The notes below the pieces were generated by a model. It was given only the letters and a program-made list of their open reading frames with translations, searched no databases and was not told the origin of the DNA. From NCBI GenBank assembly GCA_026387665.1, contig JAPLLG010000013.1, positions 1 to 64,000 of the forward strand: a stretch of DNA of 64,000 bases, written 5' to 3'. This document shows, one piece after another, positions 4,076 through 12,476 of the stretch (positions are counted from its first letter, which is position 1; the number at the start of each line of letters is the position of its first letter). The DNA is from Nitrospirota bacterium (lineage in GTDB: Bacteria; Nitrospirota; Nitrospiria; Nitrospirales; Nitrospiraceae). The position numbers were made by a program, and so were the translations under genes.

Positions 4076-4996
4076 TTACGATCGCGAGGCCCGCATGTTG
4101 GCGGAAAGAAGCATCAGCAGGCGTCTATGGAGGGCGGTGAGATCATCGAGCAATTCAATCTTGGTTTCACGAAGCAGATCTCCGATGGCACAGGCGCCTT
4201 GGCCCCCGACCGCCACGGCCCAGCGCGCCGACAGGGGTGCGAGCTCTTTGAGGAGCTGACGAGCCTCGGTATCTGATTTGATTTCGGTCAGCGAGAGCAG
4301 CACGAGATCCGGATGTATCCGATCGCAAAAATCCACCAGAGCAGCAACGGGAAGGTTCGGGCCAAGGTAATAGACGTGGCACCCTCTGGTCGCGGCTAGG
4401 TAGGCCACGGCCTGGGCTCCGATCTCATGCGTTTCACCTTCCGGACAGGCAATCAGAACTCGTGGTCCGAATTCATTCACCGGAAGCTGGTTCATGACCG
4501 AAAACAATTTCTGCTGGGCGATCTTCGTCACATAATGTTCGACGGCAACAGTGATTCGGCCCTGGTGCCAGAGCTCCCCGATGCGCCGTTGCAATGGGAG
4601 CAGAATCCGCTGGACGGCCTCTTCAAACGGAATGACGGCCACTGCTCCGTTCAGTTTGCGCTCGAATCCTGCCTTATCGAGCGGGTCGAGCAAGCCAACC
4701 AAATCATCTAGCAGACGCTCATGGGGCTTCTGTTCCTCCGCCGACACAGGAGTCGCGACGTGCATCCGTGCGACCAGCGACTCACGCCCCTCTTCCGCCA
4801 GTGCACCGATCGTCGCGCCTTGCTCCATCTGCGCCTTCAGAAAGCGGAGGAGCGCCACTTCCTCGTCACTATATTCGCGATAGCGATTGGAGCTTCTGGA
4901 GGGTACGACAAGCCCGTATCGCCTCTCCCAGATGCGAATGACATCCTTCGAGAGGCCTGTAAGCTTTGCAACCCTATGAATTCTATGAGTATTCAT
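4076..4996 (-). CDS. CarH/LitR-type B12-dependent MerR regulator
   Basis: A 306-residue transcription factor. Residues 1-70 form a MerR winged helix (VAKLTGLSKDVIRIWERRYG). Residues 95-170 are the helical cap of B12-binding domains, with W143 and E153-H154 in the exact W-x9-EH spacing of CarH. Residues 178-300 are a Rossmann-type cobalamin domain with E188-x-H190-xx-G193, the motif supplying the lower His ligand. CarH-type proteins repress in the dark with adenosylcobalamin bound and release DNA after light cleaves the Co-C bond. That mechanism is inferred for this protein, not shown. It is divergent from the gene at 5133 and shares operator-like repeats with it, so autoregulation is likely. 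Confidence 0.88.
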   Translation of the reverse strand: MNTHRIHRVAKLTGLSKDVIRIWERRYGLVVPSRSSNRYREYSDEEVALLRFLKAQMEQGATIGALAEEGRESLVARMHVATPVSAEEQKPHERLLDDLVGLLDPLDKAGFERKLNGAVAVIPFEEAVQRILLPLQRRIGELWHQGRITVAVEHYVTKIAQQKLFSVMNQLPVNEFGPRVLIACPEGETHEIGAQAVAYLAATRGCHVYYLGPNLPVAALVDFCDRIHPDLVLLSLTEIKSDTEARQLLKELAPLSARWAVAVGGQGACAIGDLLRETKIELLDDLTALHRRLLMLLSANMRASRS

Positions 4997-5008
4997 ATTT
5001 ACTGGCCC

Positions 5009-5037
5009 ATTGTATTATCATGTCCAATGTTTGTCAA
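5009..5037 (-). promoter_or_regulatory. Promoter of the CarH-type regulator gene
   Basis: On the minus strand a perfect TTGACA (5032-5037) is followed after exactly 17 bases by TACAAT (5009-5014). The spacer contains the repeat ACATTGGACA. Transcription would start near 5002, only about six bases before the ATG at 4994-4996, so the message would be almost leaderless. Confidence 0.7.
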
Positions 5038-5114
5038 ATATTTTTCGTTGTAACACTTGACACATTGGACATAATGCTTTATACGTTAGACATACTTGCT
5101 TCAAACATTGGACA
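5021..5114. promoter_or_regulatory. Four operator-like repeats (consensus ACATTGGACA)
   Basis: Copies are at 5021-5030 (minus strand), 5062-5071, 5083-5092 (ACGTTAGACA) and 5105-5114 (plus strand). The three plus-strand copies are spaced 21 and 22 bases apart, about two helical turns. The first lies inside the minus-strand promoter and the next two in the plus-strand promoter. The arrangement fits a repressor tetramer contacting several sites on one helix face, as known for CarH proteins. Binding is inferred. Confidence 0.7.
5057..5085 (+). promoter_or_regulatory. Divergent promoter for the 5133 gene
   Basis: TTGACA at 5057-5062, 17 bases, TATACG at 5080-5085. One ACATTGGACA repeat overlaps the spacer just after the -35 box, and a second, ACGTTAGACA, overlaps the -10 box. 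The predicted start near 5092 leaves a leader of about 40 bases with AGGAGG at 5123-5128 before the ATG. Confidence 0.7.
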
Positions 5115-5132
5115 TAAAGCCTAGGAGGCAAC

Positions 5133-5411
5133 ATGGCAAGAGCATTATCGGAGCAAACAAGAGCTGAGAAGCTCGGGAGTCACTCGATCTCTTCTACAGT
5201 CCAACATAAATCGATCTGCGCCAGGTGCGGCGGACTCATGGTGAATGACTTCTGTCTGGATTTACTAAACAGCACCGGCGAATTGGAGTTTGCCGCAATA
5301 CGTTGCGTGCAATGTGGCGAGCTCGTTGACCCCGTCATTCTGCAGAATCGCCAACTCCGGCAGAGTTCGATGCCGAGTCGGTGGGCCGAAAGAATGACGG
5401 GAGGTCACTAG
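5133..5411 (+). CDS. Small zinc-ribbon-like protein
   Basis: A 92-residue soluble protein with two CxxC knuckles: CARCGG near residue 29 and CVQCGE near residue 61. They are likely a zinc ribbon. The segment between them (NDFCLDLLNSTGELEF) holds one further Cys. A strong AGGAGG stands five bases before the ATG. It is the first gene downstream of the regulated divergent promoter. The biochemical role is unknown; DNA, RNA or protein binding are all possible. Confidence 0.75.
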   Translation: MARALSEQTRAEKLGSHSISSTVQHKSICARCGGLMVNDFCLDLLNSTGELEFAAIRCVQCGELVDPVILQNRQLRQSSMPSRWAERMTGGH

Positions 5412-5467: not shown

Positions 5468-6433
5468 ATGCGGAGTCAAATAATATTCCAGGTCGGATTG
5501 GGGGTAGCGTTGATGGCGGGAGCCATCTCAGTCGCGACTGCGGCGGACATGCCGGGCAGCGACAAGGACATGGTGCCCATCCCGAAGGGTGAGTTCACCA
5601 TGGGGAGCAACGAACATTCGGATGAAGCCAGGCACCAGGTCGTGCTCGATGCCTATCTGATCGACAAGTACGAGGCGTCGAATGCTCGGTATAAAGAGTT
5701 TATGAAAGGCACCGGTCATCCGGCCCCAGCTTATTGGGATGACCCGCGGCTCAGCAAGGCCAATCAGCCAGTCGTCGGCGTAAGCTGGACTGACGCGAGC
5801 GCCTTCTGCAAATGGGACGGCAAGCGCCTTCCGACGGAAGCAGAATGGGAGCGAGCGGCCAAAGGTCCGGAAGGCGACAACCATTATCCGTGGGGCCATA
5901 CCCTTGATTCCAAGAAAGCTAACTACGGGCAGAATGTCGGCCATACCACGCCAGTGGATTCCTACCCGGAGGGTGTCAGCGGGTTTGGCGTCTACAACAT
6001 GGCGGGCAATGTCTTTGAATGGGTCGAGGATTGGTATGACCCGAAGTTTTATAAGGAGAGCATTGCCCTGAATCCGCGTGGCGCCGAGAAGGGCTACAAC
6101 TTCGCCAATCAAGGCCCGGTCAGGGTACTGCGCGGTGGCTCCTGGCTCGCGCCGGAAAGCTCCCTCCACACAAGCCATCGGTTCTGGAATCAGCCGGACA
6201 ATAACTCCTATGGGGTCGGCCTCGGGTTCCGTTGCGCGAAGTCGGCGCAGACGGTGTCCGATGAAGCGATGCAGGCAGGCCGCGATGCCTTCATACAGGC
6301 ATTAATCGCGATGGGTGTCGAGAAGAACGCCGAGGCGCTGGCTTCCATCGAACAGGCGCTGGCTTCGGAGCCGGGCAACAAGGAATACCTGGCGACCCGC
6401 GATTTGATAAAGAAGAGCATGAAGAAGAAATAG
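5468..6433 (+). CDS. Exported SUMF1/FGE-fold protein with C-terminal helical tail
   Basis: The start is ATG at 5468, preceded by AAGGAGG (5457-5463). A signal peptide of about 27 residues ends in ATAAD. The SUMF1 (formylglycine-generating enzyme) fold follows: MVPIPKGEFTMGS, DAYLIDKYEASNARYKEF, KRLPTEAEWERAAKG, NMAGNVFEWVEDWYD, RVLRGGSW and GLGFRCAKS. The two active-site cysteines of true FGE, normally just after the RGGSW motif, are absent. It therefore probably does not make formylglycine and may bind a ligand or act in another exported pathway. About 60 extra residues at the C-terminus look like a short TPR-like pair. It shares fold and export with the protein at 6959-7804. Confidence 0.85.
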   Translation: MRSQIIFQVGLGVALMAGAISVATAADMPGSDKDMVPIPKGEFTMGSNEHSDEARHQVVLDAYLIDKYEASNARYKEFMKGTGHPAPAYWDDPRLSKANQPVVGVSWTDASAFCKWDGKRLPTEAEWERAAKGPEGDNHYPWGHTLDSKKANYGQNVGHTTPVDSYPEGVSGFGVYNMAGNVFEWVEDWYDPKFYKESIALNPRGAEKGYNFANQGPVRVLRGGSWLAPESSLHTSHRFWNQPDNNSYGVGLGFRCAKSAQTVSDEAMQAGRDAFIQALIAMGVEKNAEALASIEQALASEPGNKEYLATRDLIKKSMKKK

Positions 6434-6593: not shown

Positions 6594-6962
6594 ATGATAC
6601 ACGACAAGATTCTTCTTCTAGGGCTCGTTCTCATCGCGCTCCTCGGGGCCTCGCCCCTCCAGGCTGGTCCCATTGATCCGGCCCGGCATTCGCACCCGGA
6701 GAGCGCACAGGCGGTACATGAGGCCGAGCATGATGTGGACCACGCGTGGGAGGTCTATCATCGCGCCGCGTTAGGGGGAACGGTCGCGTCCCCTGCCCTG
6801 CAGGCGGACATCGAAGAACACCTGCACGAAGCCAGAACCCTCATTACCCAGGCGCAAGAAGCAGCCGCGCAGGGAGACAGCCGTGAGGTGAAACGTCTCG
6901 TGAGCCAAGTGAAAGTCCATACCACGAAAGCCATCGAAGGGAGTAAGGAGCAGAAGAAATGA
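6594..6962 (+). CDS. Small exported His-rich helical protein
   Basis: The 122-residue product has a signal peptide (residues 1-24, ending SPLQAG). A histidine-rich stretch follows (about residues 30-60, with HSHPE, HEAEHDVDHAW). The remainder is an amphipathic helical region ending in Lys-rich EGSKEQKK. The His residues could bind metal, but no defined motif is present. Its stop overlaps the start of the next SUMF1-fold gene (ATGA), so the two are translationally coupled and probably act together outside the cytoplasm. Confidence 0.7.
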   Translation: MIHDKILLLGLVLIALLGASPLQAGPIDPARHSHPESAQAVHEAEHDVDHAWEVYHRAALGGTVASPALQADIEEHLHEARTLITQAQEAAAQGDSREVKRLVSQVKVHTTKAIEGSKEQKK

Positions 6963-7804
6963 CACAAGGTCTGAGAAGAAGAGGAACCAGCTGGCGCACT
7001 ACCGTTGCGATGATGGCCCTAGCCTCTGCTGCCGCCTTCGCGCCTGTCATGGCAGCGCCGCCGGCGCCCAAGGAACTCGACCAAGTCCCCATGGTGACGA
7101 TTCCGGCTGGACCATTTCTGATGGGGAATCCGGAAGGCAAAGGCCGGACTGATGAGTGGCCGCAGCGGTCTGTAGACCTCGACGAGTTTGCGATCGATCA
7201 AGTCGAAGTGACGAATGAACGGTATCTGGTGTTCGTTGCGACCACAGGCCACCGAAGCCCTCCGAATCCCTATGGCACCGGCCCGCTCTTATCCATGAAG
7301 GGAATCGAACAGCTTCCGGTCGTGCAGGCCACCTGGTACGACGCCAAGGCCTATTGTAGCTGGGCGAAGAAGCGGCTCCCGACGGAAGCGGAATGGGAGA
7401 AAGCCGCTCGTGGCACCGATGGTCGGCTGTTTCCCTGGGGCAACGAACCAGCGACAGCGAAGCGGGCGAACTTCGACCGTGAGTGGGATGAAGAGAAAAC
7501 CTTACATCCGGTCGGGTCCTTGCCAGGCGGCGACTCACCCTACGGCGTGAAGGACATGTCGGGCAATGCTCGAGAGTGGGTGCAGGATTGGTATGACGCT
7601 GAGTACTACAAACATGCGCCGGATCGGAATCCCCAGGGTCCTGACAAGAAAGGCGTGGTCCGATCGATTCGCGGCGGGTCTTGGCATAGCCCGATGTCGG
7701 ACATCACGACGACGGCTCGCGGGCGTGGCGGATTCGCGCTGCAGACCCACGGGACGGGCTTTCGCTGTGTCCGGGGTCTCGAAGACCAGATTCAGCAGAA
7801 GTAG
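6959..7804 (+). CDS. Second exported SUMF1/FGE-fold protein
   Basis: A 281-residue paralogue of the protein at 5468. After an N-terminal export signal (residues 1-33) come MVTIPAGPFLMGN, FAIDQVEVTNERYLVFVA, KRLPTEAEWEKAARG, DMSGNAREWVQDWYD, RSIRGGSW and GTGFRCVRG. As in its paralogue, no Cys pair follows RGGSW, so the formylglycine-generating chemistry is unlikely. It lacks the C-terminal helical tail of the first copy. The ATGA overlap with the small helical protein gene indicates one operon. Confidence 0.85.
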   Translation: MTQGLRRRGTSWRTTVAMMALASAAAFAPVMAAPPAPKELDQVPMVTIPAGPFLMGNPEGKGRTDEWPQRSVDLDEFAIDQVEVTNERYLVFVATTGHRSPPNPYGTGPLLSMKGIEQLPVVQATWYDAKAYCSWAKKRLPTEAEWEKAARGTDGRLFPWGNEPATAKRANFDREWDEEKTLHPVGSLPGGDSPYGVKDMSGNAREWVQDWYDAEYYKHAPDRNPQGPDKKGVVRSIRGGSWHSPMSDITTTARGRGGFALQTHGTGFRCVRGLEDQIQQK

Positions 7805-8026: not shown

Positions 8027-8944
8027 ATGCACATTATTGTGACCGGCGGAACGGGCTTCATCGGTCGGCCCTTATGTGCATCCTTAAGTCAGGAGGGGCA
8101 TCGGGTGACTCTCCTCACGAGAAGGAAGGAAGAGGCGCAACGATCCTGTGGCTCCACCGTCACGGCCGTCGAGTGGAATGGCAAAGAGGCGGGAGTTTGG
8201 GAGCATTGTCTCGAAGGTGCCGATGCTGTCATCAATCTTGCCGGTGCGCCCATTGCTGATGCCCGCTGGAGCGATGCCCGCAAGCGACTCCTCACAGAAA
8301 GCCGGGTCCTCACCACTCGTCTGCTGGTAGAAGCCCTGTCCCGCCGGTCCTCGAAACCGCGCATTCTGATTAGTGCCTCCGGTATCGGCTACTACGGGGC
8401 CAGCGACGATCGCCTGCTGGATGAGGGCGCCGCGCGCGGCCAAGGATTTCTGGCCGATCTCTGTCTCGCATGGGAAGCGGAGGCACTTCGGGCTGCGGAG
8501 TTCGGTGTGCGAGTCGTCACGTTACGGACCGGAATGGTGCTCGAACGAGACGGCGGGGCCTTGCCGAAGATGCTGTTGCCGTTTCGGCTCTTCGTTGGCG
8601 GGCCGATCATGCCGGGGACTCAGTGGGTGTCGTGGATCCATCGGCGTGACCACATCGGTCTGATCCAGTGGCTGCTCGCAATGCCGAGCGTCTCTGGCCC
8701 CGTCAATGCTGTGGCTCCCGAGGCTGTAACGATGAACCGGTTCTGCAAGGTGCTCGGGCAAGTCCTCCACCGGCCGTCCTGGCTTCCCCTGCCTGGCTTC
8801 GCGCTACACATGGCGATGGGTGAACTCGGGACGCTCATGACCACGGGCCAACGGGTCAATCCGGCGAAGGCGCTCTCCGGGGGCTACGTCTTTCGCTACC
8901 CGACGCTGGAACCGGCCTTGCGGGCGATCCTCGCGAAAGGATGA
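8027..8944 (+). CDS. TIGR01777-family NAD(P)-dependent epimerase
   Basis: A 305-residue extended short-chain dehydrogenase. The nucleotide-binding motif TGGTGFIG is at residues 6-13. ISASGIGYYG marks the usual active-site region of this subfamily, and VNAVAPEAVTMNRF the C-terminal part typical of TIGR01777 (YfcH-like) proteins. The substrate is unknown for the whole family. A near-perfect ribosome binding site (AAAGGAGGTG) precedes the ATG. In other bacteria such genes are found in light-induced CarH/LitR regulons, which fits its place here. It probably acts in the cytoplasm on a nucleotide sugar or lipid-like substrate, an inference only. Confidence 0.85.
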   Translation: MHIIVTGGTGFIGRPLCASLSQEGHRVTLLTRRKEEAQRSCGSTVTAVEWNGKEAGVWEHCLEGADAVINLAGAPIADARWSDARKRLLTESRVLTTRLLVEALSRRSSKPRILISASGIGYYGASDDRLLDEGAARGQGFLADLCLAWEAEALRAAEFGVRVVTLRTGMVLERDGGALPKMLLPFRLFVGGPIMPGTQWVSWIHRRDHIGLIQWLLAMPSVSGPVNAVAPEAVTMNRFCKVLGQVLHRPSWLPLPGFALHMAMGELGTLMTTGQRVNPAKALSGGYVFRYPTLEPALRAILAKG

Positions 8945-9175: not shown

Positions 9176-9595
9176 ATGATGACCAAGAAGATCGGTATCA
9201 CCAGCTACGTATTGTTGAGCCTGTTAACGGTCGTGCTGTTTCAGATCTCAGGGAAAACGAGCGACGTCAGGGCTGCCGAGGGGCAGGATAAGGCAGGGAG
9301 TCAGGCCCAGCGACCGCACGGAGACGAGGCCAACCTGCCGAATGGGGTGATCGGCCTGTCGCTGCATGTCGGGGCGGAACGTATCGGCGATCCTGCTTCG
9401 TTGTATGTAGCCCATGTGCATCCGGAGGGCCCTGCCCAGCAAGCAGGCCTGAAGCACGGAGATGAGGTGGTGACGGTGAACGGTGCGGCGGTAGTCGGTA
9501 AGACCTATGAACAGGTGGTGAAGATGGTGCGCGGGGAAGCGGGCACAGTGGTGAAACTGGGGGTGAAGGGGGAGGGGTGGGGCTGCGCGAGCTAG
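9176..9595 (+). CDS. Exported PDZ-domain protein, frameshifted at the 3' end
   Basis: The product has an N-terminal signal or anchor (residues 8-25) and one PDZ domain from about residue 55: GVIGLSLHVG, YVAHVHPEGPAQQAGLKHGD, VTVNGAAVVGKTYEQVVKMV. The frame ends at TAG 9593-9595 with an odd GWGCAS tail. In another frame the same DNA continues as LRELVITRIASEKLYKGEMG to a stop at 9664-9666. This is how such PDZ proteins normally end. The shift lies in the G-rich stretch 9558-9583. It could be a real mutation, a slippage site or a sequencing error. The start is ATG-ATG behind AAGGAGG. Confidence 0.75.
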   Translation: MMTKKIGITSYVLLSLLTVVLFQISGKTSDVRAAEGQDKAGSQAQRPHGDEANLPNGVIGLSLHVGAERIGDPASLYVAHVHPEGPAQQAGLKHGDEVVTVNGAAVVGKTYEQVVKMVRGEAGTVVKLGVKGEGWGCAS

Positions 9596-9675: not shown

Positions 9676-10206
9676 ATGATCAACAGCCTGAAACTATTTG
9701 CGGCTCTTGGACTCATCGTCATGCTTGGCGGGGGTGCCGCGTTTGGTGAACCGGCAGCCGTTGCGGCTGGCTCACCGCGGACCAGCCTGACGAAAGCGCA
9801 TATCTATCTGGGGGCCGGCGATTACCGTCGGGCGCTGGAGGTCTGCCAGAGAGAAATCGACGACGAACCCTCCGTCGAAGCCTATATCCATTTGACCTAT
9901 GTGTTCCATGCGATCGATGCCTACTTAGACCATCTGTCTCGGGAGGAGCGGTGGAACACAGTGGAACAGTTGTATCTGAATTTTGCCTACAAGGATCCGC
10001 AAGATTTGATCGATCCTCCTGGTGGGCTGGCCCGCATGGCGAAGGAGATGATTCAGACCGGCGTGCATCAACAATCTGACGTGAGCGCCGCGATGGCCAC
10101 CCGTCTGAACAAGAGCGAGGCAGATCGGTTGTGGCAGCAACAGACTCAATGGCGTACGGCGAATCCACAGACCTGGTGGACTGGCATCCCGGACGCATGG
10201 CGTTGA
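9676..10206 (+). CDS. Exported helical (TPR-like) protein, unknown function
   Basis: A 176-residue protein with a signal peptide of about 24 residues (LFAALGLIVMLGGGAAFGE). The mature part begins with one TPR-like helix pair (AHIYLGAGDYRRALEVCQRE). The rest is helical and Trp-rich at the end (QTWWTGIPDAWR). It lies nine bases behind the shifted-frame end of the PDZ gene, so the two are likely co-transcribed. No enzyme motif is visible. Confidence 0.65.
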   Translation: MINSLKLFAALGLIVMLGGGAAFGEPAAVAAGSPRTSLTKAHIYLGAGDYRRALEVCQREIDDEPSVEAYIHLTYVFHAIDAYLDHLSREERWNTVEQLYLNFAYKDPQDLIDPPGGLARMAKEMIQTGVHQQSDVSAAMATRLNKSEADRLWQQQTQWRTANPQTWWTGIPDAWR

Positions 10207-10301
10207 AGCGAGCGTAGGTTGAACGTTCGGCTTTCGCCCATCGTGGGTCGCCGGCAAGCCCGCGAGGACTATTTAGCCCTCGGCAGACAACAGAGGACGA
10301 G

Positions 10302-11255
10302 ATGACAACCGCGCCGCTCCGTCTTGGCATCAGCCGCTGCCTCCTCGGTGACGAGGTCCGTTTTGACGGGGGCCATAGGCGGGACAGTTTTCTCACAGAC
10401 GTGCTGGGCCGTTATGTGGAATGGGTTCCAGTCTGTCCCGAAGTGGAGGCCGGTCTCGGCACGCCCAGGGACGCGATGAAGCTGGTGGGCGATCCTCTCC
10501 ATCCCAGGCTCGTAACCATCGAGAGCGGAATCGATCACACGAAGGCGCTCGAAAAGATGAGCGTCCGGCGCATCCGTGAACTACAAAAGCTGGACCTCTC
10601 CGGATACGTGTTCAAAAAGAACTCGCCGAGCTGCGGCATCGAACAGGTTCGCATCTATAATGAGCAGGGGAAGCAGAACGGAAACGGGGTCGGGCTGTTT
10701 GCTCGGGCCTTCATCGAGCAGTTCCCTCTGATTCCGGTCGAGGACGAAGGGAAGCTCTGCGAGCCAACGATCAGAGAAAATTTCATCGAACGGATCTTTT
10801 GTTATCGCCGCTGGCAGGATTTCATGCAGGGCAAAGTCACGAGACAGGCCCTGGTGCAGTTCCACACGATCCACAAATATCTGTTGATGGCCCATAGTCC
10901 GCAACAATACCAAGCGCTCGGGCGGCTGGTCGGTCACACTCATCGACAGAGCCCCAAGACACTCGCCAACTTCTATGGCAAGCTCTTCATGAAGACCTTG
11001 GCCATGAAGGCGACGGTGCGCAAACAGGTGAACGTGCTCCAGCACATGCTGGGATACTTCAAAAAGATGCTGAACACTCAGGAAAAGGCAGATCTATTGG
11101 GCGCGATTGACGATTATCATCGCGAGCGCACGCCGCTGGTTGTCCCGTTGACGCTGATCAAACACTATGTCCAGGTCTTTGACGTGAGCTATCTGCGGGA
11201 TCAAATCTATCTTAGGCCTGACCCAAAAGAACTCATGCTGCGCAATCATGCATAA
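10302..11255 (+). CDS. DUF523-DUF1722 (YbgA-type) fusion protein
   Basis: A 317-residue protein of two known domains. Residues 1-150 are DUF523: LGISRCLLGDEVRFDGGH, VPVCPEVEAGLGTPR, and FKKNSPSCG. Three conserved Cys suggest metal or cluster binding. Residues 185-310 are DUF1722 (the E. coli YbgA domain): LVQFHTIHKYLLMAHSPQQY, LANFYGKLFMKTL. In E. coli and pseudomonads this architecture is linked to photolyase genes and light-responsive MerR regulators. Here it lies downstream of a CarH-type regulator but no photolyase is in the window. The biochemical function is not established. Confidence 0.88.
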   Translation: MTTAPLRLGISRCLLGDEVRFDGGHRRDSFLTDVLGRYVEWVPVCPEVEAGLGTPRDAMKLVGDPLHPRLVTIESGIDHTKALEKMSVRRIRELQKLDLSGYVFKKNSPSCGIEQVRIYNEQGKQNGNGVGLFARAFIEQFPLIPVEDEGKLCEPTIRENFIERIFCYRRWQDFMQGKVTRQALVQFHTIHKYLLMAHSPQQYQALGRLVGHTHRQSPKTLANFYGKLFMKTLAMKATVRKQVNVLQHMLGYFKKMLNTQEKADLLGAIDDYHRERTPLVVPLTLIKHYVQVFDVSYLRDQIYLRPDPKELMLRNHA

Positions 11256-11268
11256 AAGGAGTCCGGTA

Positions 11269-11775
11269 ATGGCGGCTGTACGAGGAGTGATTCTGGTTGG
11301 TCATGGCGGGATTCCCAAAGACTGCCCGCAGGAGTTGGTCACGAGGCTAAAACGATTGGAGGCTCAGCGGCGAGCTGCCAAGCTGCCTCGCTCCCAGGAA
11401 GAAATCGAGCTGGATGGCAAGATCCGAAGCTGGCCGAGGACTGCTGAGACGGAGCCCTATCAGGCAGGCCTCGAAGCAGTCGCAGCGCGCTTGCGCGCGC
11501 AACTGGACGGGGTCCTCTTTGCCGTAGCCTACAACGAATTTTGCGCCCCGACCCTGGAAGAGTCGGTGGAAGGGCTGATCAAGCAGGGCGCGACCCACAT
11601 TACCGTAACCACGACGATGTTCACGCCAGGCGGCTCGCACTCGGAGGTTGAGATTCCGGAAATCCTCGACCATCTGAAGCCGAAGCATCCAGGCATCGAA
11701 CTCCGTTACGCCTGGCCCTTCGATCTAAATCTTGTCGCGAACACCTTGGCGGAACAGATCAAACGATTTTCTTGA
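11269..11775 (+). CDS. CbiX-like cobaltochelatase
   Basis: The ATG at 11269 has AAAGGAG seven bases upstream and is preferred over the one at 11248, which overlaps the previous gene. The protein (168 residues) has the class-II chelatase pattern: GVILVGHGG near the N-terminus with the metal-binding His, and FTPGGSHSEVEIP with the second His and a Glu. CbiX inserts cobalt into sirohydrochlorin in anaerobic-type B12 synthesis. An insertion of about 30 residues (RRAAKLPRSQEEIELDG) follows the first motif. It directly follows the DUF523-DUF1722 gene, and its product pathway supplies the cofactor of the regulator at 4076. Confidence 0.75.
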   Translation: MAAVRGVILVGHGGIPKDCPQELVTRLKRLEAQRRAAKLPRSQEEIELDGKIRSWPRTAETEPYQAGLEAVAARLRAQLDGVLFAVAYNEFCAPTLEESVEGLIKQGATHITVTTTMFTPGGSHSEVEIPEILDHLKPKHPGIELRYAWPFDLNLVANTLAEQIKRFS

Positions 11776-11897
11776 ATAGGATCGCGGGGCGTCTGTGCAT
11801 GCATGGGCAGGAATTAATTTACAGCGGAGGATTCTTTTTTGCCCTTCGCCGAGTGTACAATGCGAAACTTTGTTTCAGAACATTGTCGAGTCACAGC

Positions 11898-12476
11898 ATG
11901 CTGCCCCTGAAAGCTGAATTAGCCAAAGCCTTCCACGACACAAAATCGTTCAAGTGGGACCAGGGTAAAGGGTTCACCCTCGCGTCCGGCTTAACCAGCC
12001 CCTTCTACGTCGATTGCCGGTCCCTCATGGCCCATCCAAGCTCGCGCAGACTGGTGGCCAACTTGGCCTGCGAGGCGCTGAAGTCTGTCGAGCTCGATTG
12101 CCTCGGCGGACTGGAGATCGGGGCCATTTCCATTGCCACCAGCATCTCTGATTTTGCCTTCGCATCCAAGCCGCCGCGAACCTGGAAAACCTTTGTGGTG
12201 CGGAAACAGGCGAAGGACCATGGGCTCGGGAAGCTGATCGAAGGATCGTTTCAGCCGGGGAATCGCGCGGTGATCGTCGATGATGTGCTGACCAGCGGAG
12301 GATCGCTCCTCAAAGCCGTCGCTGCCGCCAGAGGCGCAGGACTGATTGTGACCCATGCCTTGGTGATCGTGGACCGGAAGGAACAGGATGGCCGAAAGAA
12401 AATTGAAGCGGAAGGGCTGACGCTTCTGAGCCTATTGGATATTGATGATCTGACCAGCGCGCAACCGCACTCCTAG
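11898..12476 (+). CDS. pyrE: Orotate phosphoribosyltransferase
   Basis: Makes OMP from orotate and PRPP in pyrimidine synthesis. The start at 11898 (MLPLKAELAKAFHDT) is chosen because homologous sequence begins there; the longer frame to 11772 has no ribosome binding site. The 192-residue product has SGLTSPFYVDCR (orotate-binding loop), LGGLEIGAISIA, the catalytic loop RKQAKDHG with Lys, and the PRPP motif VIVDDVLTSGGS. The start has only a weak ribosome binding site. It is a stand-alone pyr gene at the end of the plus-strand train. Confidence 0.85.
   Translation: MLPLKAELAKAFHDTKSFKWDQGKGFTLASGLTSPFYVDCRSLMAHPSSRRLVANLACEALKSVELDCLGGLEIGAISIATSISDFAFASKPPRTWKTFVVRKQAKDHGLGKLIEGSFQPGNRAVIVDDVLTSGGSLLKAVAAARGAGLIVTHALVIVDRKEQDGRKKIEAEGLTLLSLLDIDDLTSAQPHS

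Follow-up and report, generated by a model that had tools for sequence, protein, structure and literature searches.

A predicted CarH-type repressor with two back-to-back operators at a putative photo-damage operon of Nitrospira

The CarH of Thermus thermophilus, a class I LitR (5c8d, 5c8e, 5c8f), shares its domain order, its fold, the residues of its AdoCbl pocket and its bis-His residue with the regulator described here, as well as an 11-bp TnnACA operator with the -35 box inside a repeat. The two proteins are nevertheless only about 33% identical. The plus-strand operator of our locus differs from the Thermus one in that it extends over about 50 bp, has a middle repeat that is degenerate and includes a 21-bp step linked to the promoter spacer; no carotenoid genes were seen in the unit that it precedes. 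Published CarH operators consist of 11-bp direct repeats of the form nnnnTnnACAn overlapping the -35 and -10 boxes, and those of the Myxococcales CarH/CarA proteins likewise combine full (DR) and degenerate (dr) units; divergent carH promoters have been predicted there too (PMC9304148). The Myxococcales operators lead to carotenogenesis, whereas ours lead to RudS, FGE-like and ThyD genes, with a photolyase in relatives. In Pseudomonas, the class II LitR proteins PplR and PmlR control a light-induced cluster that, similarly, includes a photolyase and an SDR; they lack one of the two B12-binding domains, are relieved by a LOV protein and use the motif T(G/A)TACA-N12-TGTACA (PMC9758184). RudS, which removes the near-UV-sensitive base 4-thiouridine from tRNA, is often encoded in light-responsive LitR operons, including one of the class II LitR type (PMC11417400).

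We analyzed a 64,000-nucleotide stretch of a 2.64-Mb Nitrospira genome (the window), together with the rest of that genome and related loci. The regulator gene (4076-4996, minus strand) codes for a 306-residue protein with a MerR helix-turn-helix, a four-helix B12-binding_2 domain and a Rossmann-type B12-binding domain, and the three Pfam families (MerR_1, B12-binding_2 and B12-binding) all scored above their cut-offs. A PDB sequence match (E~1e-30) to T. thermophilus CarH/LitR spanned the whole length of the protein. Its AlphaFold model had a mean pLDDT of 86, and the top Foldseek structures were those of full-length CarH (5c8d/5c8e/5c8f, E of 3e-19), 5c8e being a DNA complex. Whole-chain TM was just 0.5-0.6, owing to a different arrangement of the domains, with a TMt of ~0.8 for the B12 region. 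The cobalamin motifs W-x9-EH and ExHxxG reported in the initial annotation were confirmed at residues 143-154 (W143, H144, E153, H154) and 188-193 (E188-T-H190-E-I-G193). Residues W131, H132, E141, H142, H177 and G192 of the Thermus protein correspond to W143, H144, E153, H154, H190 and G205, and these positions are kept in nearly all of 33 relatives. The genome also encodes two cob(I)alamin adenosyltransferase families for AdoCbl synthesis.

The Thermus dimer-interface pair R176-D201, which forms a salt bridge, is T189/N214 in the window protein, and Glu-Arg or Asp-Arg equivalents are absent as well; N214 is retained by most Nitrospira. As such equivalents have been reported for many but not all CarH homologues (PMC9304148), the salt bridge is not strictly defining for CarH. 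The substitution nevertheless means that oligomer assembly may differ, and the predicted formation of a Thermus-like tetramer is not assured. With the NCBIfam CarH equivalog model the protein scored 141 bits, where the cut-off is 400, a database threshold rather than a biological definition of the family. Since it falls below that cut-off and does not have the interface pair, we filed it as a divergent member: judged by its sequence, it is a CarH/class I LitR protein outside the curated equivalog. An assignment to class II LitR was rejected, as both B12 domains are present and the repeats at the locus are not T(G/A)TACA-N12-TGTACA.

The genes facing away from carH, all on the plus strand, begin with a small zinc-ribbon-like protein with two CxxC motifs (5133-5411), conserved as the first gene in most relatives and without a Pfam match. 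It is followed by an exported FGE-sulfatase-domain protein (5468-6433), a small exported protein (6594-6962) and a second exported FGE-sulfatase-domain protein (6959-7804), all three conserved and both FGE assignments made by Pfam. Further downstream are a ThyD/YfcH-type SDR (8027-8944, TIGR01777), a conserved PDZ-domain protein (9176-9595, Pfam), a small conserved protein (9676-10206), a RudS-type TudS-DUF1722 protein of the tRNA 4-thiouridine desulfidase family (10302-11255; Pfam; PMC11417400) and a CbiX-type chelatase-like protein (11248-11775, Pfam), whose gene adjoins rudS in most relatives. Many relatives keep the order from zinc-ribbon to CbiX gene, and the sister family keeps it in outline. 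A terminator scan gave results at chance level only; these genes would make up a single operon, and the 10302-11255 product would have RudS activity. In relatives, including the nearest two (L063 and L064), a class I-type DNA photolyase gene stands between the 9676-type gene and rudS, where the window has 96 bp (10206-10302). The PF03441 photolyase family had no match anywhere in this genome, and one other genome (G019) likewise keeps carH, the operators and rudS with no PF03441 photolyase.

Several other arrangements were observed around these genes. Directly after rudS in the window, a PyrE-like open reading frame overlaps the end of the CbiX-like gene (11248-12476). In some relatives a pair of carH and array precedes a NapC/NrfH-like multihaem cytochrome c, named by eye from its sequence (L048 12186-14673; L082 7933-9864; L107 7942-9865; L103 2984-4912), and some of these loci also have a cytochrome c-FGE fusion; this makes a second kind of unit linked to CarH in the genus. 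The sister family has a second CarH paralogue, about 35% identical, beside rudS, and a photolyase and a BLUF-like protein, the latter read by eye, are found nearby in L042 (all these features at L042 2283-3167, 697-2145 and 7861-8706; L043 5770-6618).

Light as the signal is suggested by the CarH family and by the photolyase/RudS neighborhood. The absence from this genome of a photolyase, the clearest light gene, counts against that reading. One may ask if a CarH-family repressor senses B12 status or redox instead and regulates envelope proteins, CbiX and RudS. The two photolyase-less genomes that have kept carH, operators and rudS would fit this, as would the CbiX-like chelatase in the unit. 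Nevertheless, all the photochemical residues are retained, including the equivalents of W131, H132 and H177, the nearest relatives have a photolyase inside the unit, and RudS belongs to light-responsive operons elsewhere (PMC11417400). We thus regard a B12 or redox sensor as improbable, and light as the likelier signal.

Two promoters with perfect TTGACA boxes and 17-bp spacers stand back to back at 5009-5085, facing outward, as the initial annotation had proposed. The carH promoter, TTGACA-17-TACAAT (-35 at 5037-5032 and -10 at 5014-5009, minus strand), has 11/12 consensus matches. The promoter of the 5133 unit, TTGACA-17-TATACG (-35 at 5057-5062 and -10 at 5080-5085, plus strand), was read in the sequence; a consensus scanner omits it because its -10 box is weak (4/6, with no T at position 6). 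TTGACA-17-TATACA/G was nevertheless found again in most of 72 orthologous promoters. Transcription of carH is predicted to start at ~5002, ~6 nt ahead of the ATG. The carH promoter is kept in 73 orthologues, where the predicted leaders are 0-9 nt long, so that the repressor message is probably near-leaderless. The 5133 gene has a Shine-Dalgarno sequence, AGGAGG, read directly at 5123-5128 on the plus strand, and neither a cobalamin riboswitch nor any other known leader RNA was found there in a search at 5133.

The same decamer had been reported in both spacers, and this was correct: ACATTGGACA is present exactly at 5021-5030 on the minus strand and at 5062-5071 on the plus strand, the latter in a conserved register (predicted repeat 1). 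Of two further copies proposed on the plus strand, the one in the early leader (repeat 3, ACATTGGACA, 5105-5114) is exact, whereas the one overlapping the -10 box (repeat 2, ACGTTAGACA, 5083-5092) has 2 mismatches to ACATTGGACA. Both -35 boxes themselves match TnnACA. On the minus strand, the -35 TTGACA and the spacer copy are thus two TnnACA units with a step of exactly 11 bp between them; they make up the predicted carH-side operator (5021-5037). On the plus strand the steps are 9 bp from the -35 box to repeat 1, then 21 and 22 bp. The proposed 21-22-base steps are therefore present, although the true unit is the 11-bp CarH repeat, of which 22 bp is two; a degenerate middle repeat, at register 41, lies at 5094-5104. 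As the repeats of one promoter run opposite to those of the other, they make up two opposed operators rather than the one shared array of the initial annotation. Both are composed of TnnACA units at 11-bp spacing that overlap the promoter boxes, the plus-strand one beginning with a 9-bp step and including one degenerate unit. That first step, being 9 and not 11 bp, counts against the reading of the locus as a CarH light switch.

Across the whole window the decamer shows no enrichment, with 44 matches to ACATTGGACA at up to 2 mismatches against 40.7 expected, but six of the 44 fall within 94 bp at this site. No decamer occurred three times in any of 20,000 shuffles of 4997-5132. Four exact copies of ACATTGGACA were found in the whole genome, three of them at the carH/5133 intergenic site and the fourth a lone copy on contig C7. 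A pair of TTRRACA motifs at a step of 21 matched exactly only at this site in the genome; at 3 mismatches the matches were mostly chance, with similar counts for the control. The only TTGACA-N5-TnnACA of the genome is that of the carH promoter. A genome search by repeat had been expected to reveal the rest of a regulon, and neither these patterns nor a profile of the operator (R1, see below) returned a second strong site in the genome.

About 75 operators, almost all from Nitrospira, retain the array, and the whole divergent region is common to orthologues that nearly all bear that genus name. Counted from the plus-strand -35 box in 72 orthologues, TnnACA/G units are found at position 9 in 58, at 30 in 59 and at 52 in 54; a weaker register, that of 41, is present in 11. 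The repeat columns carry 1.32 bits on average, the degenerate unit 0.65 and the other intergenic columns 0.77. The middle repeat, with its TnnACA, is intact in N. moscoviensis (L085) and in some other relatives (L025, L106, L111), and two loci (L015/L019) have steps of exactly 11 where others have 22. The 22-bp step is, on this comparison, two predicted 11-bp CarH units whose middle one has decayed. Steps of 12 and 23 are also present among the orthologues, and the sister family (L027, L029) has 11-bp steps starting from the -35 box. The 21-bp step from 9 to 30 tracks the promoter spacer in several orthologues, being 22 at a spacer of 18.

We searched 61 genomes with R1, a sequence profile of the plus-strand operator built from 19 of the arrays that it matches. 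It had a single match in its own genome and matched 23 of the 61 genomes at E<1e-10, each time beside carH or a carH fragment, and among these 61 those devoid of CarH gave no match below 0.01. Matches outside the building set include G004, G012, G023, G025:C73 and the second arrays of G027, G028 and G030. Two CarH-bearing genomes of the sister family (G047, G057) gave weak matches at the equivalent place. In G027 and G028 a second carH is reduced to fragments while its promoter pair is kept, in G028 upstream of ThyD-PDZ-photolyase-RudS-CbiX genes. That promoter pairs have outlasted their carH suggests that such operators may be controlled in trans, with the caveat that the arrays at these decayed copies, in two genomes, have a 5-bp insertion after the -10 box that breaks the phase. 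The shared insertion and the retained operator pair were seen at L143 813-1092 and L045 16557-16839.

CarH is predicted to bind these repeats; alternatively, the sites might belong to another DNA-binding protein next to which CarH lies by chance; the operators do not have the T(G/A)TACA-N12-TGTACA of Pseudomonas class II LitR. We consider this very unlikely, given that the unit fits the published CarH repeat (PMC9304148), that every array lies beside a carH copy or fragment and none is present where CarH is missing, and that autoregulatory sites are a common feature of the family. Least probable of all is plain promoter conservation with chance repeats, since, even though two of the TnnACA motifs are -35 boxes, the shuffles, the column bits and the conservation over about 75 operators, which extends to repeats outside the boxes in spacers and leader, already contradict it.

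The fold, the cofactor residues, the operator consensus, conservation across the genus and a strict co-occurrence thus uphold the proposal of a CarH-type B12 regulator with autoregulatory divergent operators. The locus very probably encodes a repressor responsive to AdoCbl and light that controls its own gene and a photo-damage operon, acting through two back-to-back CarH operators. We infer the following course for binding, dark repression and light response. In the dark, the AdoCbl-loaded regulator would occupy the TnnACA repeats, phased at 11 bp, within each of the promoters, covering the -35 box and spacer of carH to switch off its own gene, and the spacer, -10 box and early leader of the 5133 promoter to switch off the photo-damage unit. 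Light would break the Co-C bond in the W143/E153/H154 pocket, with H190 as the lower ligand and H144 as the ligand after photolysis; the oligomer would then fall apart and both promoters would fire. The output here would be the zinc-ribbon-like protein, two FGE-like exported proteins, ThyD/YfcH, RudS and CbiX, joined by DNA photolyase in most relatives, and RudS would take photosensitive 4-thiouridine out of tRNA. A more specific proposal, which we hold to be rather unlikely, is that of a Nitrospira CarH lineage that does without the salt bridge of the Thermus dimer and occupies every second 11-bp repeat, at a distance of two helical turns, with s4U removal by RudS, and not DNA photorepair or carotenoids, as the core output kept in photolyase-less members.

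Nitrospira are major nitrite oxidizers and include the comammox bacteria. A CPD photolyase of Nitrospira has been reported (PMC9239080), and N. marina has photolyases and a need for B12 (PMC8115632). The literature searched, largely papers free of subscription, yielded neither a CarH of a Nitrospira nor a sensor-level account of the light response of Nitrospira. The system is apparently a further case of a known CarH kind, undescribed in Nitrospira, its novelty being provisional. It would give Nitrospira a concrete, conserved B12 photoswitch with operators and targets, and would connect the sensing of light with photolyase and with s4U removal from tRNA. The spacing variants found in nature (11, 12, 22 and 23 bp) offer a test of how CarH may read phased repeats.
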